The position numbers and the translations under genes were made by a program. A model generated the notes under the pieces. The model was not told the DNA's origin. It ran no database searches and worked only from the letters and a program-made list of their open reading frames with translations. DNA of 64,000 nt from Actinoallomurus soli. GTDB taxonomy: Bacteria; Actinomycetota; Actinomycetes; Streptosporangiales; Streptosporangiaceae. Position 1 is the stretch's first letter. The number at the start of each line of letters is the position of its first letter. Positions 4,654 through 14,824 of this stretch are shown here, piece by piece. The DNA is taken from NCBI RefSeq assembly GCF_024055715.1, contig NZ_JAMXMV010000011.1, positions 124,001 through 188,000 on the forward strand, in the 5' to 3' direction.

Positions 4654-7134
4654 GTGAGCCGACGTCGTCGCAACGACATGCCCCCGGGTGACATGCCCGG
4701 CGACGGCCAGCCCTATCGAACGCCCCGAGACGGCGGCTCCCCGGGGAACCAGGCGCCGAGCGACGACCGGAGTCCCTTCGCGCCGCGCCGCCCCGAGTCG
4801 AGCGGTTCCCCGCAGGAGGTCCCCGGCGACAGCGGCGGCACGGGCGGGTACGGCGGCGGTCCAGGCGGCTACGGCGGCGGCCCGGCGGGCTACGGCACCC
4901 GTGGCCCGGGCGGATACGGCTCTTACACCGCACCCGGTCAGCAGGACCGGTACGGCACGGGCACCGGCTCCTACGGCGAACCCGGCGGACAGGATCGTCC
5001 CGGAACCGGCGCGGATCCCCGATCCGGCGCCGGCGAACGGGACCGTTACGGCACCGGCTCGTACGACTCCTCCTCCTACATCCAGGGCGGCGGGTTCTTC
5101 GGCAGGCAGGGCGGGGGCCTCCCCGGCCCGGGCGGCGGCTCCGGCTACGGCACCGGCCCCGGTTACAGCGGCGCGGGGTCCGGCTACGGCGGCACGGGAT
5201 CCGGCTACGGGTCGGGCCAGGGCATGGGCGGCCGCGACCGCGATCCGGGCAGGACCGGATCCGGTGGGCCGGGAGGCTCGGGCCACGGGGGCACGGGGTC
5301 CGGAGGCTCGGGCTACGGAGGATCGGGCCGGGGCGGCACGGGTGCGGGCGGGTCCGACGACGACCGCCCACGGTCCTCCGCTCCCGGCACGGGACGCCGC
5401 CGCGCCCAGCGCCGCCGTACGATCGGCGCGCTGGTCGGCCCGCTCGCGGGCGCGATCGGCCTGGCGATCCTCCTCGGCGCGGGGGTCTACGCGCTCGCCG
5501 ACGGCAGCAAGTGCGGCGGCACCCCGATCGACCTGAAGGTGGTCGCGGCACCCGACATCGCGCCGGCGGTCAGCGACATCACCAACTCGTTCAACGGCGA
5601 GCGGCACTCCGTCGACGGCAAGTGCGTGAAGGCGACGGTGAAGGCCGCCGACCCGGCGGGCACGACCACGATCCTGTCCGGTCAGGGGACCGTGCCCGGT
5701 GACGTGACCCCGGACGTGTGGATCCCGGACTCCTCGCTGTGGGTCACCCTCGTGCGCAGTTCGCCCAAGGGCGCGTCGAGCGTGGACACCACGCCGACGA
5801 GCGTGGCCGAGACGCCGCTCGTCGTGGCGACCACCAAGTCCTTCGCCAACAAGCTCAATGGTCAGGGCATCCGGCCGACCTGGGACATGCTGCTCAAGGC
5901 CACCGACGCCCTCGCCGCCGGCGCGGTCAGCAAGAACGACATGCTCCCGGCGAACTCCGTTCACCTGCAGATCCTCGACCCGACCCGGAACGCCGGCGGG
6001 CTCGGCGCGGTCGTCATGACCCGGATACTGCTGAAGGGCGACCCGCACGCCGACGCGATCTTCACTCAGATCGCACGGAAGGTGCAGAACAGCCTCTCGC
6101 CGAACACCCAGGCGCTGTTCGCCAGCTTCCACCGCAACCTGCACGGCCGGGCGCCCGTCGTCATCGCGCCGGAGCAGGCCGTCTGGAAGTACAACCGGGG
6201 GAGGCCGAGCGCTCCGGCCAGCGCCATCTATCCGAACGAGGGCATGCTCAGCCTCGACCACCCGTACACGCTGACGACCGACGACGACACGAAGGTCCGC
6301 GCGGCGCAGCTGCTGGAGAAGGCGATGAGCACCGAGCAGGCGCAGGTCGCGGTGCGCGCCCTCGGGTTCCGCACTCCGGACGGGCGGGCCGGCACCGGGT
6401 TCGGCGCGGCGAGCGGGGTGAGTCCGCGGATCCCCCGCGCGCTTCCGACGCCGGGGTCGAGCGACGTGACCGGGGTCATGCAGGCCTGGACGAAGCTGTC
6501 GCTGCGCACGCGGATGCTGACGCTTCTCGACGTGTCCGGGTCGATGGCGCAGCCGGTCGGCAAGGGCGTCACGCGGATGGAGGCGACCGCCCAGGTCGCC
6601 CAGGGCGGCCTCGCGATGCTGCCCGACGACACCGACCTGGGGCTGTGGACGTTCTCCACGAACCTCAGGGGGAACCAGGACTACCGGACCGAGGTGCCGA
6701 TCGGCCCGCTGTCCACCCGGCTCGGGTCGGGGACGCGCCGCCAGGCCATCCTCAGCGCGCTGGGCCGGCTCCGGCCGAAGCCCGACGGCAACACCGGGCT
6801 GTACGACTCGGTGCTGGCGGCGTTCCGGTCGATGAAGAAGACCTACAAGCCGGGCTACTACAACTCCGTCCTCGTGTTCACCGACGGCAAGAACGACAAG
6901 GTGAACGGCATCTCGCTGAACGCCCTCCTCCGGACGCTGAAGAAGGAGAACGACCCGGCCGCGCCGGTCCAGGTCATCTTCATCGGCTACGGCCCGGACG
7001 TGGACATGGCCGCCATGCAGAAGATCGCCGCCGAGACCGACGGCGCGGCGTACCAGGCGATGAAGCCGCAGGAGATCCAGACCATCTTCCTGGACACGGT
7101 GGCGCGCCGCATCTGCACGCCGGAGTGTCACTGA
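4654..7134 (+). CDS. Membrane-anchored substrate-binding / von Willebrand A domain fusion protein
   Basis: 826 residues in four parts: a basic start then a Gly/Tyr/Ser-rich disordered tract to about residue 245 (many GYG repeats), an RRRAQRRR-type basic patch and one membrane segment near 258-282, an extracellular periplasmic-binding-protein-like domain (about 295-560, beginning LKVVAAPDIAPAV), and a VWA domain (about 618-815) with the metal-site motif DVSGS at residue 626. No lipobox or cleavable signal is seen, so it is likely a single-pass protein with its bulk outside. Start is GTG 4654; only a weak GGGA precedes it. A strong terminator follows. It probably binds an outer ligand or protein partner. 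Its position before three outer-sensing sigma fusions may be functional, which is inference. Confidence 0.85.
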   Translation: MSRRRRNDMPPGDMPGDGQPYRTPRDGGSPGNQAPSDDRSPFAPRRPESSGSPQEVPGDSGGTGGYGGGPGGYGGGPAGYGTRGPGGYGSYTAPGQQDRYGTGTGSYGEPGGQDRPGTGADPRSGAGERDRYGTGSYDSSSYIQGGGFFGRQGGGLPGPGGGSGYGTGPGYSGAGSGYGGTGSGYGSGQGMGGRDRDPGRTGSGGPGGSGHGGTGSGGSGYGGSGRGGTGAGGSDDDRPRSSAPGTGRRRAQRRRTIGALVGPLAGAIGLAILLGAGVYALADGSKCGGTPIDLKVVAAPDIAPAVSDITNSFNGERHSVDGKCVKATVKAADPAGTTTILSGQGTVPGDVTPDVWIPDSSLWVTLVRSSPKGASSVDTTPTSVAETPLVVATTKSFANKLNGQGIRPTWDMLLKATDALAAGAVSKNDMLPANSVHLQILDPTRNAGGLGAVVMTRILLKGDPHADAIFTQIARKVQNSLSPNTQALFASFHRNLHGRAPVVIAPEQAVWKYNRGRPSAPASAIYPNEGMLSLDHPYTLTTDDDTKVRAAQLLEKAMSTEQAQVAVRALGFRTPDGRAGTGFGAASGVSPRIPRALPTPGSSDVTGVMQAWTKLSLRTRMLTLLDVSGSMAQPVGKGVTRMEATAQVAQGGLAMLPDDTDLGLWTFSTNLRGNQDYRTEVPIGPLSTRLGSGTRRQAILSALGRLRPKPDGNTGLYDSVLAAFRSMKKTYKPGYYNSVLVFTDGKNDKVNGISLNALLRTLKKENDPAAPVQVIFIGYGPDVDMAAMQKIAAETDGAAYQAMKPQEIQTIFLDTVARRICTPECH

Positions 7135-7242
7135 CCTGCGGAAATCCGGCGTGGCGCCCCGGAGCGCCGCGCCGGCCGAAAAAAATCCGGAATCTCTGTG
7201 AAATCCGGTGAACCTCCGTGGCCGCCGCTGCGTCTCTCTTAC

Positions 7243-7284
7243 GGAGGCCCGACGGGAGCGGGGCGTCGGGCCTCCTTCTTTTTT
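7243..7284 (+). terminator. Rho-independent terminator after the SBP-VWA gene
   Basis: GGAGGCCCGAC (7243-7253) pairs perfectly with GTCGGGCCTCC (7265-7275) over an 11-base loop and is followed by TTCTTTTTT. It separates the VWA gene from the first sigma fusion, so the latter needs its own promoter. Confidence 0.85.
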
Positions 7285-7325
7285 CTCCGGGGGCGCGTCC
7301 GACACCACACCTCCGGGAGGTCGCT

Positions 7326-8831
7326 GTGGCCGGTTGGCCCAGTCTCGGTCGCGTCGATGACCGCCGGTTGGCGCAGGAGCTGCGTGCCGGCGATGCCACC
7401 GCGCTCGCCCAGATCTACGACATCTACGCGCCCCGCCTGTTCGACTACTGTCACGCGCTGCTGCGGGACGAGAATCTGGCGGCGGAGGCGCTGCGCGACT
7501 CGCTGATCGTGGCACTCGCGCACATCGACGGGCTGCGGGAGCCGGAGCGGTTCCGCAGCTGGCTCTACGCCCTCGTGCGCAACGAGTGCGTGCGGCGGCT
7601 GCGCGATCCGCAGACGCCCGAGGACCGGCACCCCGCCGCCGAGGAGGCCGACGACGCGTTCCTCGACGCCGAGGAGCGCAACCGCCGCCTCGAGACCCGC
7701 AAGCTCGTGCACAGCGCGCTGGCCGGCCTGCCGGGCCGCCACCGCGAGGCCGTGGACCTCGCCGTCCGCCACGAGCTGGCCGCCGAGGAGCTGGCCGGCG
7801 TTCTGGGGATCTCCTCCCAGGAGGCTTTGGAGCTGGTGGCCGAGTCGCGCGACGAGCTCGACAACGCCCTCGCCGCCGCGATCATCGCCCGTACGGGGCG
7901 GGGCGACTGCCCCAGCGTCGCCGCGCTGGTGGACGAGCACGAGTGGCCGCTGCCGCCGGAGGTGTCCCGCAGGCTCGTCCGCCACATCGCCTCCTGCCCG
8001 ACGTGCCGGGACCGCCGCAAGCGCAAGGTCTCGACGAACCGGCTCATGCAGGTCATGCCGGTGGCCGCGCTCCCCGTGGAGCTGCGCGGCGTGGTCCTGG
8101 CGTCGGCGGCCCCGGACCTGTCCGAGGCCCGGGCTCGCGTCGCCCGGCGCGCGGAGCCGTTCGACGCCTGGGGCTGGCCGACCAGCCTGGACCACGTACG
8201 GCCGGCCCGCGACGACGACCGGCGCGGCGTTCCCCGCCTGTGGCCGGCCGTGGGCGCGGCCGCGTGCGTCCTCCTCGTCGCCGGGGCCGTCTTCCTGGTC
8301 ACGGGCGGCTCGTCCGCGCAGCACCCGTCGGGCGGCGCCCGCCGTCCGGTCGCCGCCGACACGGGCGCCTCCCCCTCCGACAGCCCACCGGCCGACGACA
8401 CCGGCGACTCCGGCTCACCGGACCCCACGCCGAGCGACACGACGCCCACCCCGACCCCGACGCGTACGAGCAGGACGCCCACTCCGACGCCGACGGCGAC
8501 CACGCGGAGGCCGGCGCCCACGCCGACGCAGACCCGGAGGCGCAGGTCGCCGCGGCCCGTGCCCGGCACGCTCGTGGTGGCCGCCCAGGGCTCGGACGAC
8601 GCGAAGACCGTCACGCTGACCGCCCGGAACGGCGTCGTCCGCTGGACGGCGAGCGCCGGACCGTACGTCACGATCGGCGGTCCCACCGGCGGCAAGCTCC
8701 CGCCGGGAGGGTCGGTCACGCTCACCGCCACCGCCGACAAGGCCACCGCCTGCGCGCAGGCGACGCCGGTCGAGCACGCGAGCGTCACCTTCACGCCGAG
8801 CGGTGCGGTCGCGCTGTCCTGGACCTGCTGA
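7326..8831 (+). CDS. Sigma/zinc anti-sigma-like/transmembrane fusion protein, paralogue A
   Basis: 501 residues. Residues 15-93 match sigma region 2 of ECF type (DATALAQIYDIYAPRLFDYC, then RFRSWLYALVRNECVRRL). Residues 122-178 match region 4 (ALAGLPGRHREAVDLAVRHE plus a helix-turn-helix). Residues 194-230 hold Cys195 and the HIASCPTC motif (His220, Cys224, Cys227), as in zinc-binding anti-sigma domains. A membrane segment lies near 304-326, then a Pro/Thr/Arg-rich stalk to about 415 and a beta-rich outer domain ending in a terminal Cys. The GTG at 7326 is set by GGGAGG five bases before it and by the VAGWP start shared with both paralogues. Sigma and inhibitor appear joined in one chain that spans the membrane, so release would probably need proteolysis; this is inference. 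Confidence 0.85.
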   Translation: MAGWPSLGRVDDRRLAQELRAGDATALAQIYDIYAPRLFDYCHALLRDENLAAEALRDSLIVALAHIDGLREPERFRSWLYALVRNECVRRLRDPQTPEDRHPAAEEADDAFLDAEERNRRLETRKLVHSALAGLPGRHREAVDLAVRHELAAEELAGVLGISSQEALELVAESRDELDNALAAAIIARTGRGDCPSVAALVDEHEWPLPPEVSRRLVRHIASCPTCRDRRKRKVSTNRLMQVMPVAALPVELRGVVLASAAPDLSEARARVARRAEPFDAWGWPTSLDHVRPARDDDRRGVPRLWPAVGAAACVLLVAGAVFLVTGGSSAQHPSGGARRPVAADTGASPSDSPPADDTGDSGSPDPTPSDTTPTPTPTRTSRTPTPTPTATTRRPAPTPTQTRRRRSPRPVPGTLVVAAQGSDDAKTVTLTARNGVVRWTASAGPYVTIGGPTGGKLPPGGSVTLTATADKATACAQATPVEHASVTFTPSGAVALSWTC

Positions 8832-8904
8832 ACGCCCAGGTCGGACGGAAAATCCGATCTGGGAGTGATCGGGTCCTTACGCAACGGGCGGCCGGAGTGC
8901 CAGG

Positions 8905-10599
8905 ATGCGGCCCATGACTCCTGACGTGGCCGCATTCCGATCCGCCCGCGACTTCCTGCTGGCGAACGCCGAGGACTACGAGACCGCCTACCGTGACTTC
9001 CGCTGGCCCGAGGTCGCCGAGTTCAACTGGGCGCTGGAGTGGTTCGACGGCGTGCTCGCCGCCGAGACCCCCGACCGTCTCGCGCTGTGGATCGTCGAGG
9101 AGGACGGCTCGGAGCTGAAGCTGACGTTCGCCGAACTCGCCGACCGGTCGAGCCGGGTGGCCGGCTGGCTGCGGGCTCAGGGCGTACGGCGGGGCGAGCG
9201 GATCCTGCTGATGCTCGGGAACCAGGTCGAGCTGTGGGAGACGATGCTGGCGGCGATGAAGCTCGGCGCCGTCGTCGTCCCGGCGACCACCCTGCTGACC
9301 CCCGACGACCTGCGCGACCGGATCGCCCGTGGCGGCGTCTCGCACGTCGTGACCGGGACGGCCGACACGGCGAAGTTCGCGGACCTGACGGGCGAGTGGA
9401 CGAGGATCTGCGTGGGCACGGCGGACGGCTGGCTCGCGTACGGCGACGCCTACGGGCACGAGCCGTACGACGCGGCCGGGACGACGACGAACGCCGGCGA
9501 CACGCTCCTGCTGTACTTCACCTCCGGGACGACCGCCCGGCCGAAGCTGGTCGAGCACACGTACGCGTCGTACCCGGTCGGGCACCTGTCGACGATGTAC
9601 TGGATCGGCCTGCGCCCCGGCGACGTCCACCTGAACGTCTCCTCCCCCGGCTGGGCCAAGCACGCGTGGAGCAACGTCTTCGCGCCGTGGAACGCCGGCG
9701 CGTGCGTGCTGGTCCTCAACTACGCGCGGTTCAGCGCCCCCGCGCTGCTGGAGGTCCTGCGGCGGTGCGAGGTGACGACGTTCTGCGCGCCGCCGACGGT
9801 GTGGCGGATGCTGATCCAGGAGGACCTGCGGTCCTGGGACCTGAACCTGCGCATCACCGTCGCGGCGGGCGAGCCGCTCAACCCGGAGATCATCGACCAG
9901 GTCCGCGAGCAGTGGGGGCTCACGGTGCGGGACGGCTACGGCCAGACCGAGACCACGGCGCAGATCGGCAACTCCCCGGGGCAGCCGCTGAAGCCCGGGT
10001 CGATGGGCCGTCCGCTGCCGGGGTACCGGATCGCGCTCATCGACCCGGTGAGCGGGGAGCCCGCCGACGAGGGCGAGGTGTGCATCGACCTGTCCGAGCG
10101 CCCGGTCGCGCTGATGGCGGGGTACCGCGACGAGTCCGGGCGGACGGACGAGGCGATGGACGGCGGGTACTACCACACCGGTGACGTGGCCTCCGTGGAC
10201 GCGGACGGCTACGTCACGTTCGTGGGACGCACCGACGACGTCTTCAAGGCCTCGGACTACAAGATCTCGCCGTTCGAGCTGGAGAGCGTGCTGCTGGAGC
10301 ACGAGGCGGTCGCGGAGGCCGCCGTCGTGCCCGCCGCCGACCCGGTGCGCCTGGCCGTGCCGAAGGCGTACGTCTCGCTGGCCGCCGGTCACGAGCCGAC
10401 GGCCGAGACCGCGCGCTCGATCCTGGCGCACTCCCGGCAGCGGCTGGCGCCGTACAAGCGAGTGCGCCGCCTGGAGTTCGGCGAGCTGCCGAAGACGATC
10501 TCCGGGAAGATCCGGCGGGTCGAGCTGCGCGGGCTGGAGGATGCGGACCGGCGCGCCGGTGAGTACCGCGAGGAGGACTTTCCGGACCTGAGGTCCTGA
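8905..10599 (+). CDS. AMP-binding acyl-CoA synthetase family protein
   Basis: 564 residues of the ANL superfamily, which activates a carboxylate as an acyl-AMP and passes it to CoA. Motifs in order: YFTSGTTARPK (P-loop; the usual Gly before the last residues is Arg here), DGYGQTET, YYHTGDVASVDADGYVTFVG, the hinge region RTDDVFKASDYKISPFELE, and the catalytic-lysine motif PKTISGKIRR near the end. The pattern is closest to acetyl/medium-chain acyl-CoA synthetases. The ATG at 8905 has GGAG seven bases upstream; ATG 8914 is a possible alternative. It sits between paralogues A and B of the sigma fusions but shows no domain link to them. Confidence 0.9.
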   Translation: MRPMTPDVAAFRSARDFLLANAEDYETAYRDFRWPEVAEFNWALEWFDGVLAAETPDRLALWIVEEDGSELKLTFAELADRSSRVAGWLRAQGVRRGERILLMLGNQVELWETMLAAMKLGAVVVPATTLLTPDDLRDRIARGGVSHVVTGTADTAKFADLTGEWTRICVGTADGWLAYGDAYGHEPYDAAGTTTNAGDTLLLYFTSGTTARPKLVEHTYASYPVGHLSTMYWIGLRPGDVHLNVSSPGWAKHAWSNVFAPWNAGACVLVLNYARFSAPALLEVLRRCEVTTFCAPPTVWRMLIQEDLRSWDLNLRITVAAGEPLNPEIIDQVREQWGLTVRDGYGQTETTAQIGNSPGQPLKPGSMGRPLPGYRIALIDPVSGEPADEGEVCIDLSERPVALMAGYRDESGRTDEAMDGGYYHTGDVASVDADGYVTFVGRTDDVFKASDYKISPFELESVLLEHEAVAEAAVVPAADPVRLAVPKAYVSLAAGHEPTAETARSILAHSRQRLAPYKRVRRLEFGELPKTISGKIRRVELRGLEDADRRAGEYREEDFPDLRS

Positions 10600-10731
10600 C
10601 GGTTTCGGTCACTCAGCGTCAGGTTTTCCTGCATGACGCAGAAAGTGATCACAGAGCGTTGCCCACTATGCCGCATTCGCCACCAAAACTGACCTATCAC
10701 CCCTTGATCGATGGCAGGATGCGTAAACCGA

Positions 10732-10750
10732 AGACGCCTTTGGGGCGTCT
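10732..10750 (+). promoter_or_regulatory. Leader hairpin before paralogue B
   Basis: AGACGCC (10732-10738) and GGCGTCT (10744-10750) form a perfect 7-bp stem with a 5-base loop, 36 bases before the GTG start. There is no T-run after it, so it is more likely a leader or protein-binding structure than a terminator. It lies in the AT-richer region that presumably holds the promoter. Confidence 0.4.
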
Positions 10751-10786
10751 GTGTCGCTTGTGGCAGGTGAGCAACGGGGAGGACAT

Positions 10787-12244
10787 GTGGCGGGGTGGCC
10801 GACGATCGACAGGGCCGAGGACCAGCGGCTGGCGCAGGCGCTCCGGGCGGGACACCCGACCGCCATGGCCGACATCTATGAGGCGTACGCGCAACGGCTG
10901 TACGACTATTGCCACGTACTGCTCCGCGATCAGGAGCTGGCCGCCCAGGGTCTGCACGACTCGCTGATCATCGTGCAGGAGCGGGGCTCGGCGCTGCCGG
11001 ATCCCCGGCTGTTCCGAGGCTGGCTGTACGCCGTGACGCGCGCCGAGTGCCTGCGACGCCGCGCCGAGACCGGAATTCCCGAGAACCGGCGGAAGGCGCG
11101 GGAGGCCGAAGGTCTCGTGGAGATCGACGAGTCGACCCGCCGGCTGGTGCACGCGGCGCTGATGGTGCTGAGCAGCGCACAGCGCGAGTTGCTCGATCTG
11201 GCGCTCCGACACGAGCTCGACCCGCACGAGCTCGCCGAGGTGCTGAACACGACGCCGCAGGACGTGACGTTGCTCGTCGAGCAGGCTCGAAACGACCTGG
11301 ACGACGCCTTCGCCGCCGTGGTCGTCGCGGCGACCGGGCGCGACGACTGCCCGAGCGTCCCCGCGCTGGCGGGCCCGGCGGACCGGCCGCTGGACGCCGA
11401 GGCCTGTGGCCGGCTGGCCCGCCACATCGGGAACTGCCCGATCTGCGGCCTGCGCGCGAATCGCAAGGTGGCGACCGCCCGGCTGCTGCACGCCATGCCG
11501 ATCGCGGCCGTGCCGGCCGGTCTGCGCGCGCGTGTGCTCGGCACCGTGACGCCCGAGCACGCCGACCTGCGGGCGGCGGTCGCGGGGCGTTTCGACCGGC
11601 CGCGGCCGGCGCCGCACGACGACGAGTTCGCCGAGAACGAGACCCGTCGCAGGGCCGGGATGTGGGTCGCCCTGGGAGCGGCCGCCTGCGCCGTGCTGGC
11701 CCTCACCGGGATCTTCCTCGTGCTCCCCGGCTCGGGCGGTAAGGCCGACTCCGGCGACCAGGCCGCCGCCGCACCGTCCAGCGGCTCGCCGAGCAGCGAT
11801 CCGTCCGAGTCCTCCCCCACCGGCCCGTCGCCGAGCAGGTCCGAGAAGCCGCACACGCCGACCCCGACACCCACCCCCACGCCGAAGAAGAGCAGGACCC
11901 CGAAGCCGGCGCACACCCTCGGCAGGCCCAGGACGACCGCTCCGGCCCCGGCGTCCTCCGCCCCACAGCCGTCGTCCACCACCGGGACGCTGACCGTGGC
12001 CGGATGCGACATGCGGTATTCCGGCCGCTGCAAGGTTCGGGTGACCGCCCACGGCGGTCCGGTGCACTGGGCGGTGAGCGGCACCAATGGGGCGGTCCAG
12101 GCCACCGGCGACGGCGACCTGGGCGCCGGAGACTCCGCGTACGTCACGGTCTCGCGGACCTACAAGGACTGGTGCTTCACCGAGAACACCGGGTCGGTGT
12201 CCTTCTCCCCGGGCTCGTCGGCCGACGTGCACTGGGACTGCTGA
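10787..12244 (+). CDS. Sigma/zinc anti-sigma-like/transmembrane fusion protein, paralogue B
   Basis: 485 residues with the same order as paralogue A: region 2 (about 15-92, IYEAYAQRLYDYCHVLLRD), region 4 (about 118-172, LSSAQRELLDLALRHELD), Cys188 plus RHIGNCPIC (His213, Cys217, Cys220), a membrane segment near 292-313, a Ser/Pro/Thr/Lys stalk with repeated TPTP, and an outer domain from about 400 with four cysteines starting GCDMRY and ending in WDC. Even cysteine number fits disulphides outside the cell. The GTG at 10787 has GGGGAGG four bases before it; an overlapping ATG two bases earlier is out of frame. It is closest in sequence to paralogue C, so the B/C duplication looks more recent. 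Confidence 0.85.
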   Translation: MAGWPTIDRAEDQRLAQALRAGHPTAMADIYEAYAQRLYDYCHVLLRDQELAAQGLHDSLIIVQERGSALPDPRLFRGWLYAVTRAECLRRRAETGIPENRRKAREAEGLVEIDESTRRLVHAALMVLSSAQRELLDLALRHELDPHELAEVLNTTPQDVTLLVEQARNDLDDAFAAVVVAATGRDDCPSVPALAGPADRPLDAEACGRLARHIGNCPICGLRANRKVATARLLHAMPIAAVPAGLRARVLGTVTPEHADLRAAVAGRFDRPRPAPHDDEFAENETRRRAGMWVALGAAACAVLALTGIFLVLPGSGGKADSGDQAAAAPSSGSPSSDPSESSPTGPSPSRSEKPHTPTPTPTPTPKKSRTPKPAHTLGRPRTTAPAPASSAPQPSSTTGTLTVAGCDMRYSGRCKVRVTAHGGPVHWAVSGTNGAVQATGDGDLGAGDSAYVTVSRTYKDWCFTENTGSVSFSPGSSADVHWDC

Positions 12245-12458
12245 CGCCTGTCGGCTCCGCACACCGACGCACCGGGTTTCGGCCACGCCCGGCGAGAACC
12301 TGCACGCTCCGCAACCGGCGGCGAAGCGTAGCCGGGCTTGACCACTTTCGTGGCGGAAGCCAGCCATGAGGCGGGTGTTAGTGGCAGTATTCGGGAACTG
12401 ATGGTGCGCCTGGGACATCTGGGCTCTGCGGGATGAATCGAGCAGTGGGGAGGGTGAC

Positions 12459-13937
12459 GTGGCCGGGTGGCCGAGCATCGACAGGGCCGAGGACCAGCGG
12501 CTGGCGCGGGCACTCGACGCCGGGGACACCAACGCCATCGCGCAGCTCTACGCCGCGTACGCGGAACGGCTGTTCGACTACTGCCACGTCCTGCTGCGCG
12601 ACCAGGACACCGCCGCGCAGGCCGTACACGACTCGCTGATCGCGGTGCGGGAGCGCATCGCCGCGCTTCCCGACCCCCGGTTGTTCCGGGGCTGGCTGTA
12701 CGCGACGACGCGCGCCGACTGCCTGCGCCGCCTTTCGCACGGCGAGCTCCCGGCCGAGCGCCGGCGGGCGCCGGAGACCGGTGCGGACGGCCTGGACCCG
12801 GCGACCCTCGAGTTCCTCCGCGCCGCGCTCGCGGTGCTGGAACCCGCCCAGCGTGAGGCACTCGACCTGGCGATACGGCATGAGCTGGACCCGCACGAGC
12901 TGTCCGAGGTGCTGGGAACGACGCCGCAAGAGACCTCCGTGCTCGTCGAGCAGGCGCGGGGCGACCTCGACGCCGCGTTCGCCGCGGTCGTCGTCGCGAC
13001 GACCGGCCGCGACCACTGCCCGACCGTTCCCGCGCTGGCGGGCCCGCCGGGCGAGCGGCTCGACGCGGAGCGGTGCGGTGAGCTGGCCAAACACGTCGCC
13101 GGCTGTCCGATCTGCGCCCTGCGCGTGAACGGTGCCGTCGCGACGGACCTGCTGCTGCGGGCCATGCCGGCCGCCGCCGCCCCCGCGGACCTGCGCGGGC
13201 GCGTCCTGGCCACGGCGTTCTCCCCCGAGCACGCTCAGACCCGGGCGACGATCGCGATGCGCTTCGCGCCCCCGCCGCCGCCCGCCGAGCCGGCGCCCGA
13301 GAAGCGGCGCCGCACGGCCACGCCCGTGTGGCTCGTCGGCGGGGCGGCCGCCTGCGCCGTCCTGCTCCTGTGCGGGTTCCTGCTCGTGTCCTCCGGGTCG
13401 GGCGGCTCGAACGGCGAGCGGCCCGCCGGCAGCGACGCCGCCGCGTCCGCCCCGGGCGGAACCCCGACCGACGACGGCTCGATGACCTCGCACGCGGCGA
13501 GCGCCACGCCCACCAAGTCGGGGACGCCGACGCCCACGCCCTCCGCCACGCCGAGCTCGCCGACACCGACACCGACGCCGTCGAAGTCCAAGCACGCCAG
13601 GACCGCCGCCCCGACCCACCACACCAGGCCGCCCGCCGGTCCCCCGCCGACGCACCCGAAGCCCCCCTCGCAACCGCAACCGGGCAGGCTCGTCGTCTCG
13701 GGGTGCAACATGGGCTACGGCTACTCATGCCAGATCACCCTGTACGCGGACGGTGGCCCCGTGACCTGGGCGGTCGTGGACACCTACCGCGTCAGCACCG
13801 GCGGCAGGGGGAACCTCGCCGCGGGCACGAGCACCTCCCTCTCCGTCAGCCGCGGCGACCGCTGCGGCCGGGGGCAGGGCTCGGTCACCTTCTCCTCGGG
13901 CGCCGTCGCCTACATCAGCTGGCGCTGCGGGTACTGA
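12459..13937 (+). CDS. Sigma/zinc anti-sigma-like/transmembrane fusion protein, paralogue C
   Basis: 492 residues: region 2 (about 15-92, LYAAYAERLFDYCHVLLRD), region 4 (about 117-172), Cys187 plus KHVAGCPIC (His212, Cys216, Cys219), a membrane segment near 285-308 (rich in Ala, Val, Leu and Cys), a stalk with many TPTPTPS units, and an outer domain with four cysteines starting GCNMGYGYSC and ending in SWRCGY. The GTG start at 12459 follows GGGGAGGG. The outer domain keeps the CxMxY and W-x-C pattern of B but differs between them, so the two may sense different things. Spacing to B is 214 bases, enough for its own promoter. Confidence 0.85.
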   Translation: MAGWPSIDRAEDQRLARALDAGDTNAIAQLYAAYAERLFDYCHVLLRDQDTAAQAVHDSLIAVRERIAALPDPRLFRGWLYATTRADCLRRLSHGELPAERRRAPETGADGLDPATLEFLRAALAVLEPAQREALDLAIRHELDPHELSEVLGTTPQETSVLVEQARGDLDAAFAAVVVATTGRDHCPTVPALAGPPGERLDAERCGELAKHVAGCPICALRVNGAVATDLLLRAMPAAAAPADLRGRVLATAFSPEHAQTRATIAMRFAPPPPPAEPAPEKRRRTATPVWLVGGAAACAVLLLCGFLLVSSGSGGSNGERPAGSDAAASAPGGTPTDDGSMTSHAASATPTKSGTPTPTPSATPSSPTPTPTPSKSKHARTAAPTHHTRPPAGPPPTHPKPPSQPQPGRLVVSGCNMGYGYSCQITLYADGGPVTWAVVDTYRVSTGGRGNLAAGTSTSLSVSRGDRCGRGQGSVTFSSGAVAYISWRCGY

Positions 13938-14032
13938 CCCGCCGGGTGACCGGCCGGCGCCGCCGGGTGGTCCCCGGCCATCGCCGCCGAGTGGCCATAC
14001 CGGTGCCGGGGCCGGGGCCGTACGGTCGGTCC

Positions 14033-14824
14033 ATGGACCTGCCTGCCGAGAAGGCGCTGCTGCGCGCCCTGCACGATGAGCACCCGGACGACCGGGGACT
14101 CCCCCTGATCCTGCCGAACGCCTGGGACGCCGTCAGCGCCCGCGTGCTCGTGGACGCCGGGTTCGCCGCGATCGCGACCGCCAGCGCCGCGGTGTCCGCG
14201 AGCCTGGGGTACGGCGACGGGGAGGCGGCGCCGTACGCGGAGATGTTCGCCGCGGCGGGCCGTGTGACCCGCGCCGTGGACGTGCCGGTGTCGGTCGACG
14301 CCGAGGCGGGGTACGGCCTGCCGCCGGCCGAGCTCGCCGACCGGCTGCGCGAGGCCGGCGCCGCGGGCTGCAACCTCGAGGACACCGCGCACGGCGCGCC
14401 GGGCGCGGGCCGCGTCCTCGCCGACGTGACCGCGCAGGCCGAGCGGATCGCCGCGCTGCGGGACGCCGACCGCGAGCTGTTCATCAACGCCAGGGTCGAC
14501 GTGTACGCCACGGGCGCGCTGCCCGGCGCGTCGGACGCCGAGCGTCTGGAGGAGGCCGTCGGCCGTGCCCGGGCCTATGTCGACGCCGGAGCCGACGGCG
14601 TCTTCGTCATCTCGGTCTCCGACGAGAAGGCCATCGCCGAGCTCGCCGACCGGATCCCCGCGCCGCTCAACGTGCTGTACCGGCCCGGCATGCCCTCCCT
14701 CGCCCGGCTCGGCGAGCTGGGGGTGCGCCGGGTGACGTTCGGGCCCGGACTGCAGCGGGCGACGCTCACACTCCTGGCCGGCCTCGCCGGGCGGCTCCAC
14801 ACCGGCGAGACCCCTGACCTGTGA
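14033..14824 (+). CDS. Isocitrate lyase / PEP mutase family protein
   Basis: 263 residues forming the PEP mutase-type TIM barrel. Visible are LILPNAWDAVSARVL at residue 25, the metal and substrate loop VDAEAGYG near 90, and NLEDTAHG near 117. The isocitrate lyase active loop KKCGH is absent, so it belongs with small family members such as oxaloacetate decarboxylases, phosphonopyruvate hydrolases or 2-methylisocitrate lyase-like proteins rather than true isocitrate lyase. It stands alone between paralogue C and the convergent phosphotransferase. No clear ribosome site precedes the ATG at 14033. Confidence 0.85.
   Translation: MDLPAEKALLRALHDEHPDDRGLPLILPNAWDAVSARVLVDAGFAAIATASAAVSASLGYGDGEAAPYAEMFAAAGRVTRAVDVPVSVDAEAGYGLPPAELADRLREAGAAGCNLEDTAHGAPGAGRVLADVTAQAERIAALRDADRELFINARVDVYATGALPGASDAERLEEAVGRARAYVDAGADGVFVISVSDEKAIAELADRIPAPLNVLYRPGMPSLARLGELGVRRVTFGPGLQRATLTLLAGLAGRLHTGETPDL

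Follow-up and report, generated by a model that had tools for sequence, protein, structure and literature searches.

Genes A, B and C and their shared architecture

The window analysed here is a 64,000-nucleotide stretch of DNA from Actinoallomurus soli (contig NZ_JAMXMV010000011.1, positions 124,001 to 188,000 of the forward strand), whose genome is assembled as 9.42 Mb in 60 contigs; all positions below are those of the window. It contains three genes, A, B and C, each predicted to encode an extracytoplasmic function (ECF) sigma factor fused in one chain to a zinc anti-sigma domain, a membrane helix and an outer domain. The genes and their principal domains are as follows (lengths in amino acids, aa; evidence in brackets).

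7326–8831, + strand: gene A, 501 aa, fused sigma-2 and sigma-4, zinc anti-sigma domain, membrane helix, Pro/Thr stalk and Ig-like outer domain (profiles, orthologues)
7401–7607, + strand: sigma region 2 of A, residues 26–94 (Sigma70_r2 above its cut-off)
7773–7865, + strand: sigma-4 helix-turn-helix (HTH) of A, residues 150–180 (mean net charge −6.6 in the eight A orthologues)
7908–8006, + strand: zinc anti-sigma ligands of A, C195, H220, C224 and C227 (sequence, alignment)
10787–12244, + strand: gene B, 485 aa, layout as in A, within a clade of duplicates confined to Actinoallomurus (profiles, AlphaFold2, tree)
11654–11722, + strand: membrane helix of B, residues ~290–312 (sequence, AlphaFold2 model)
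11978–12241, + strand: outer Ig/BACON-like domain of B, residues ~398–485 (model, Pfam and PDB matches)
12459–13937, + strand: gene C, 492 aa, layout as in A, sister to B (profiles, tree)

The coordinates given for these genes in a preliminary description proved correct: all three are real genes, and orthologues agree on their starts. Each begins with a GTG codon downstream of a purine-rich stretch of ribosome-site type, the proteins all open with VAGWP, and longer open reading frames (ORFs; A from 7218, B from 10751) find no support among orthologues. The shared domain order proposed there (sigma regions 2 and 4, zinc anti-sigma motif, membrane helix, Pro/Thr stalk, outer domain) was likewise recovered in all three proteins.

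Profiles identify the sigma part firmly in A and less firmly in B and C, and the predicted structure of B supports it. Against the TIGR02937 sigma70-ECF model (cut-off 42.9 bits) A scores 58.7 bits, and B and C stay below the cut-off at 30.2 and 33.9; Pfam Sigma70_r2 exceeds its cut-off in A alone, and the region 4 models fall short of theirs in all three. Structure prediction, run on B, supports the sigma fold. The AlphaFold2 model (20-row alignment) has a mean predicted local distance difference test score (pLDDT) of 77.5, reaching at least 90 for the larger part of sigma-2, sigma-4 and the zinc domain, with block means of 77–83 at residues 91–120 and 76–79 at residues 221–240. Its best solved matches are anti-sigma-bound ECF structures, with target template modelling (TM) scores of 0.71 for SigW-RsiW and 0.77 for CnrH-CnrY, versus 0.36 (6dv9) and 0.43 (6jbq) for structures bound to RNA polymerase. 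SigW is also the nearest solved sigma factor by sequence (8.2e-10 in a PDB search with a profile of A, B and C); SigW and RsiW are two separate proteins, unlike A, B and C, and SigW keeps a basic reader, KTRIHRGRE.

The cysteine and HxxxCxxC motif reported for the three proteins is present in each, spaced C-x24-H-x3-C-x2-C (C188/H213/C217/C220 in B; C187/H212/C216/C219 in C). Among 76 fused proteins, 72 have HxxxCxxC and 68 the upstream cysteine as well. The corresponding domain models score low: zf-HC2 is sub-threshold in A and B and has no entry for C, and the anti-sigma model NF052375 (cut-off 100 bits) gives 30.7 bits for B and 33.7 for C. Two A-like proteins (L078 and L039) have the HxxxCxxC motif changed or gone. 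A 408-aa protein (L013; match at G000:C57:354814-355116) has sigma-2 and sigma-4, a membrane helix, a stalk and a beta-like end without the zinc motif, and N-terminal-only matches of its kind occur in 7 of the 8 Actinoallomurus genomes (E 1e-20).

In the model of B the membrane helix extends over residues 282–312. Lysines and arginines are more numerous in the 15 residues before the helix than in the 15 after it in A (5/2), B (3/1) and C (4/1), and an N-inside topology therefore fits. The stalk is disordered in the model (pLDDT below 50). The outer domain, folded alone, reaches a pLDDT of 92 with nine strands; its best PDB matches are Ig/PapD-like domains, with an E value below 0.001 for VesB only, and a Bacteroides xyloglucanase, 3zmr, is among the matches listed. 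The Pfam model BACON_2 weakly matches 5 of 18 members, at best with E 6.7e-4.

The outer domains had been said to differ among the copies and the sigma parts to be alike. Identities for the pairs AB, AC and BC are indeed 32, 41 and 45% in the outer domain versus 51, 50 and 68% in the sigma part, although the latter also mean that the sigma part of A is only about half identical to those of B and C. Ratios of nonsynonymous to synonymous substitution (dN/dS; simple counting method, 11 orthologue pairs) are 0.17–0.34 for sigma-2, 0.08–0.58 for sigma-4 and 0.16–0.49 for the zinc domain, and 0.49–1.03 for the outer domain and 0.20–1.04 for the stalk. Judged by these ratios, the outer domains are evolving fast.

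An acidic sigma-4 reader in the A and B branch

A family profile built from the first 312–327 residues of the three proteins detects kin at E 1e-20 in 23 of 41 genomes (the window's own included), among them all 8 Actinoallomurus genomes. Across the class it detects kin at 1e-30 in at least 30 of 296 genomes, with seven candidates scored per genome. In a tree of 74 rows, A falls in a clade of eight Actinoallomurus proteins, one per genome (support 100/100), close to Actinomadura proteins. B and C fall in a clade of 18 that is confined to Actinoallomurus (100/100); a B-clade gene is present in 8/8 of these genomes and the C subclade in 3/8.

We compared the sigma-4 HTH of these proteins with those of other ECF factors of the same genome. 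The first control set comprises the 25 ECFs among the 30 best-scoring of 122 sigma matches (five non-ECF rows were dropped), and the second 38 further matches above the cut-off, from which gene A and one match with an internal stop were excluded; the fused proteins were counted by named clade, which leaves aside 5 of the 76 (L013, L074, the short L099 copy, L102 and L103). At the position where an arginine presumably contacts DNA, 57 of the 63 controls have arginine (22/25 and 35/38), as do 18 of the 22 proteins of the deep fused branch (a further one has lysine) and all 12 of the sister clade, the one linked to a substrate-binding/von Willebrand factor A (SBP-VWA) surface protein gene. The residue is absent from all eight A proteins and from their five kin, and is found in 1 of 18 proteins of the B clade (A and B clades together, 1/26). 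It is missing as well from a small fused group of six, the L012 type (0/6), which is also poor in basic residues.

Net charge of the HTH follows the same division. Its mean is +2.4 in the first control set and +2.3 in the second (range −1 to +6), −0.4 in the deep branch (−2 to +4) and +0.8 in the sister clade (−1 to +2), versus −6.6 in A (−8 to −6), −4.8 in the kin of A (−6 to −4) and −6.3 in the B clade (−9 to −2). The ranges of the 63 controls and of A, its kin and the B clade (−9 to −2) do not overlap, and addition of the second control set left the result unchanged and strengthened it. For the recognition helix itself, the difference in charge between canonical ECFs and the A and B clades has P 6e-10 (Mann-Whitney; the rows are related, so that independence is overstated), and the deep branch is also less basic than canonical ECFs (mean +1.8 vs +3.3, P 8e-6, with the same overstatement). 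By this measure the helix is somewhat less basic throughout the fused kind, and much less basic in the A/B branch. Positions of region 2.2 that are usually D, Q and F in ECFs are changed in A and B as well.

Since the sigma domains are under purifying selection, the acidic reader is not a product of decay. The 17-residue recognition helix taken alone gives dN/dS values from 0 to 0.97. The suggestion in the preliminary description that the three proteins would serve overlapping promoters becomes doubtful, because the helix expected to read DNA in sigma-4 has lost its basic residues across the A/B/C branch.

Gene neighbourhood, predicted promoters and a conserved hairpin

Two neighbouring genes are as follows.

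4654–7134, + strand: SBP_bac_11 and VWA surface protein (SBP-VWA), conserved neighbour; start coordinate provisional (synteny)
8914–10599, + strand: acyl-CoA synthetase-like gene, between A and B in Actinoallomurus (profile matches, synteny)

In 13 of 13 sister-clade loci the fused sigma gene has the SBP-VWA gene upstream of it, and two Actinomadura loci have the order SBP-VWA gene, A, APH-like gene, one of them carrying A twice. The interval from A to the APH-like gene is longer in Actinoallomurus, where it holds the synthetase gene, one or two genes of the B clade and a PEP-mutase-like gene, an order that is intact in 7 of 8 genomes and split across two contigs in the remaining one (G001). 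From synteny and the tree, A looks ancestral beside a conserved surface-protein gene, and B and C stem from a duplication confined to Actinoallomurus. B and C are adjacent, as the term 'tandem' had implied, but the synthetase-like gene separates A from B; we therefore rejected a description of the locus as three tandem copies.

Upstream of A and B, a slightly variable motif, GTRAACC-N16-CGTCT, is conserved across Actinoallomurus; in A it is followed, before the start codon, by a conserved hairpin.

7208–7235, + strand: predicted ECF-type promoter of A, GTGAACC-N16-CGTCT (conserved motif)
10723–10750, + strand: predicted ECF-type promoter of B, GTAAACC-N16-CGTCT (conserved motif)
7243–7275, + strand: conserved hairpin GGAGGCCCGACG-GGAGCGGGG-CGTCGGGCCTCC with loop GGAGCGGGG, between promoter and start of A

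The core AACC-N16-CGTC was sought within 250 nt upstream of the fused genes (simple dinucleotide-block shuffles give 0.004–0.006 per sequence). It was found in 8/8 A genes and in 4/4 tested kin (A branch, 12/12), in 7/13 genes of the sister clade and in 7/18 of the B clade, the latter divided into 6/12 genes at the locus (B of the window, but not C) and 1/6 elsewhere. Among other fused branches it occurs in 0/30 (0/7 for the L012-like genes and L013, 0/23 for the deep branch and Thermomicrobium roseum). The genes counted include neither L055 (9617; in A. parmotrematis, where it is the second gene of a tandem) nor L074, L102, L103 or the short copy at L099; one B-clade row had only 113 nt upstream (L045), and one with a 15-base spacer was scored as a miss (L064).

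Across the eight Actinoallomurus genomes the full motif has 66 sites versus 8 for the reversed pattern, and across 59 genomes of other genera 184 versus 21, an imperfect control since GTGAACC may be common in coding DNA. Density is 0.93 per Mb in Actinoallomurus and 0.46 in the other genera (expected 32.8, observed 66, P 2e-7). Because 58 of the 59 other genomes of the family have at least one match, the motif does not depend on the A/B/C branch; and since it is enriched in those genomes too, we rejected the shared motif as proof of autoregulation. If A were self-activated and its reader lost, the promoter should decay; that it is kept favours another ECF factor as its reader. The promoters of A and B are thus probably read by another envelope-stress ECF sigma factor.

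Genes behind motif sites were chosen mechanically from 53 site entries, with one representative of each checked in Pfam. A CorA-like transporter, FG-GAP secreted proteins and a GIDE-like membrane protein recur in four genomes each, and a Ser/Thr kinase and a CDP-alcohol phosphatidyltransferase-like protein in two each. These genes (L218, L220, L195, L204 and others) form an envelope-type set and a candidate envelope regulon. A 28-base match to the promoter pattern is identical in four genomes, spacer included (L191/L202, L192, L221), without a clear gene behind it; it perhaps lies inside a conserved gene.

A hairpin pattern in which the inner arms are fixed and the loop is left free has 23 sites in 22 of 341 genomes of the family. 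The loop is NGAGCGGGG, near-invariant, in 20 of these sites (19 genomes, several genera); an A-like gene follows 18 of them, and an SBP-VWA gene precedes 19. Outside that arrangement, one locus has promoter and hairpin without an A-like gene after or an SBP-VWA gene before them within 1.5 kb (L235; G005:C42, ~51072), and another has the SBP-VWA gene and the hairpin with no A-like gene in the next 1.5 kb (L244; G024:C156, ~2510). Pairing across the alignment is 97.6%, versus at most 50.6% when the arms are slid. Outer pairs covary, three of them with changes in both partners (8 cells), but sliding by +3 gives a covariation score almost as high (0.095 vs 0.097). The alignment was chosen with fixed inner arms, so that only the outer four pairs and the loop, which was not imposed, are informative. 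In A. parmotrematis the hairpin has one extra pair, changed on both sides, with the loop unchanged. Its stability is ordinary for its composition (z −1.7). Rfam gave no match in 6900–14200 at E 0.1, a plasmid collection searched with the A leader gave none, and a scan of viral contigs with the hairpin pattern returned four matching stretches. The hairpin could be a leader element, the terminator of the SBP-VWA gene or a repressor site at the transcription start.

Interpretation and relation to known systems

The preliminary description read each protein as a sigma factor held at the membrane by its own inhibitor and then released; sigma fold, zinc anti-sigma motif, anchor and outer domain do lie in one chain, but the route of release, though plausible, is a matter of inference. 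The reading to which we lean is that A, B and C are derived one-chain sigma/anti-sigma proteins with a latch in cis, an outer sensor, a promoter read by another sigma factor and a non-classical output. The zinc anti-sigma domain would hold the N-terminal sigma fold in cis at the inner face of the membrane, and the Ig/BACON-like domain on its Pro/Thr stalk would sense something in the cell wall or outside. A signal may then loosen the latch or trigger proteolysis, perhaps by the site-2-protease route; genes of the site-2-protease type (M50) are present in the genome, without a link to A, B or C. A and B themselves would be expressed from the ECF-type promoter, with another envelope-stress sigma factor as its probable reader. 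Given its acidic sigma-4 reader, the freed part would probably not recognise a −35 element as a classical sigma factor does, and its output might run through a changed promoter logic (for example sigma-2 with a −10 element) or through occupying a protein partner. Layout, conservation, change of charge, synteny and the conservation of promoter motif and hairpin are read from the sequences; latch, signal, proteolysis and output are inferred.

Several observations weigh against this reading. Helix charge is an indirect test of DNA reading, and the B pairs give high dN/dS values for the recognition helix (0.40–0.97). What we take to be region 2.3-2.4 is still basic (mean +1.8 in A, +4.6 in the B clade), as a working sigma factor needs, and the model of B has target TM scores of just 0.47–0.54 against AlgU-MucA, sigmaE-RseA and SigK-RskA. 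The case for another sigma factor as reader rests on enrichment of the motif outside Actinoallomurus; autoregulation is a possible alternative, and none of the 30 best-scoring sigma genes has the motif within 450 nt upstream of its match, so that no reader is picked out.

The foremost alternative, possible though on the unlikely side in our view, is that A, B and C are ordinary one-component sigma factors of the ECF52/53 type, cleaved on a signal and reading AACC-N16-CGTC upstream of A and B in positive autoregulation. The one-chain layout, implied to be unusual in the preliminary description, has already been described in groups ECF48, ECF52 and ECF53, as the consulted passages of two papers set out (PMC5826349, PMC8999054). 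In those passages, ECF52 combines an ECF sigma factor, a zinc finger, a membrane segment, a Pro-rich stretch and an outer domain in one chain (PMC5826349), and ECF48 and ECF53 have a C-terminal fusion with a zinc finger and one or two membrane helices, for which proteolysis is expected (PMC8999054). We likened A, B and C to these groups by description, and they may belong to one of them. SCO4117 of Streptomyces coelicolor (ECF52) shares with them the order of sigma factor, zinc finger, membrane segment and Pro-rich stretch. As far as its account goes, it is an activator whose own gene was activated in a strain with the sigma part alone, but its bound motif was inferred only, and overproduction of the protein failed (PMC5826349). 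By the same descriptions, its outer domain is a carbohydrate-binding module (smart00776) and its conserved neighbour atrA, where A, B and C have an Ig/BACON-like domain and the SBP-VWA gene. The ordinary-sigma alternative also draws on the promoter of all A-branch and some B-clade genes, on the basic region 2.3-2.4 and on a motif twice as dense in Actinoallomurus as in other genera. Against it stand the acidic sigma-4 reader with its lost arginine, the altered region 2.2 and the near-ubiquity of the motif in the family irrespective of branch.

A bolder proposal, which we offer tentatively and consider rather doubtful, is that in the branch of Actinoallomurus, Actinomadura and their kin selection has turned sigma-4 into an acidic, protein-facing surface, the proteins being membrane-tethered pseudo-sigma sensors with a fast-evolving outer domain that control other sigma factors rather than read promoters. 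A general ECF promoter would switch such sensors on, and the A message is predicted to begin at the conserved RNA hairpin.

We regard as improbable the specific form in which the fold has ceased to start transcription and plugs the zinc anti-sigma domain or acts as a decoy for other anti-sigma factors, the signal altering the free amount of a real envelope-stress ECF sigma factor. The precedent is PhyR, a response regulator of Alphaproteobacteria whose sigma-like domain acts on the anti-sigma factor NepR; no receiver domain appears among the Pfam matches of the three proteins (E up to 0.5). An acidic reader kept by selection and an altered region 2.2 would suit such a role, which would amount to feedback, since A and B are made from the promoter type of that very sigma factor. 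PhyR_sigma-like matches exist, weak and below the cut-off, for B (E 0.11) and C (E 0.024), and the model resembles PhyR-NepR (target TM 0.64), but such similarity is expected of any sigma-like fold. Positive charge in and after the zinc knuckle of A (+5.2), the B clade (+2.7) and the L012 type (+3.0), which also has a non-basic reader, fits as well. The sister and deep groups and the kin of A have +0.7 to +0.8, however, so that an acidic reader occurs in the last without a basic knuckle; region 2.3-2.4 is still basic, and no partner sigma or anti-sigma factor was picked out.

That the ORFs are artefacts of GC-rich DNA, arising by chance or mis-annotation, has a negligible chance of being right and was rejected: overlapping ORFs on both strands are common in the window, but these have kin in every Actinoallomurus genome, sigma-part dN/dS well under 1, and profile and structure matches.

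We regard four features as new: the acidic reader, an outer domain of Ig-like type, the association with SBP-VWA and the leader; the layout is known. Searches of an open-licence library listed no paper on fused sigma factors of Actinoallomurus or their SBP-VWA link, nor on a sigma factor with a BACON-type outer domain or an acidic reader. Should the freed part still start transcription, a sigma factor would work without a basic −35 reader, and ECF promoter recognition would be in question; should it not, membrane sensors would have been built from a retired sigma factor. To our knowledge, signalling proteins of this kind have so far been known chiefly from PhyR of another phylum. The A/B/C set offers three natural variants for testing the question, beside a sister clade that keeps the basic helix. 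As the account of ECF52 leaves its DNA-binding motif unproven (PMC5826349), the question bears on the whole kind.

Two other fused proteins are of note. IutY of Pseudomonas putida (ECF243) has its anti-sigma domain fused at the C-terminal end, is membrane-bound and is freed by proteolysis; unlike A, B and C it belongs to an iron cell-surface signalling system, and its description, as far as consulted, contains no zinc/Ig layout (PMC8999054). The ECF52 class is described in the consulted passages as exclusive to Actinobacteria (PMC5826349). Fused sigma/zinc anti-sigma proteins as such are not confined to that phylum, judging from a plasmid of Thermomicrobium roseum that encodes a fused sigma/zinc anti-sigma/membrane protein of 436 aa (WP_012642865.1; L153:2459-3769).

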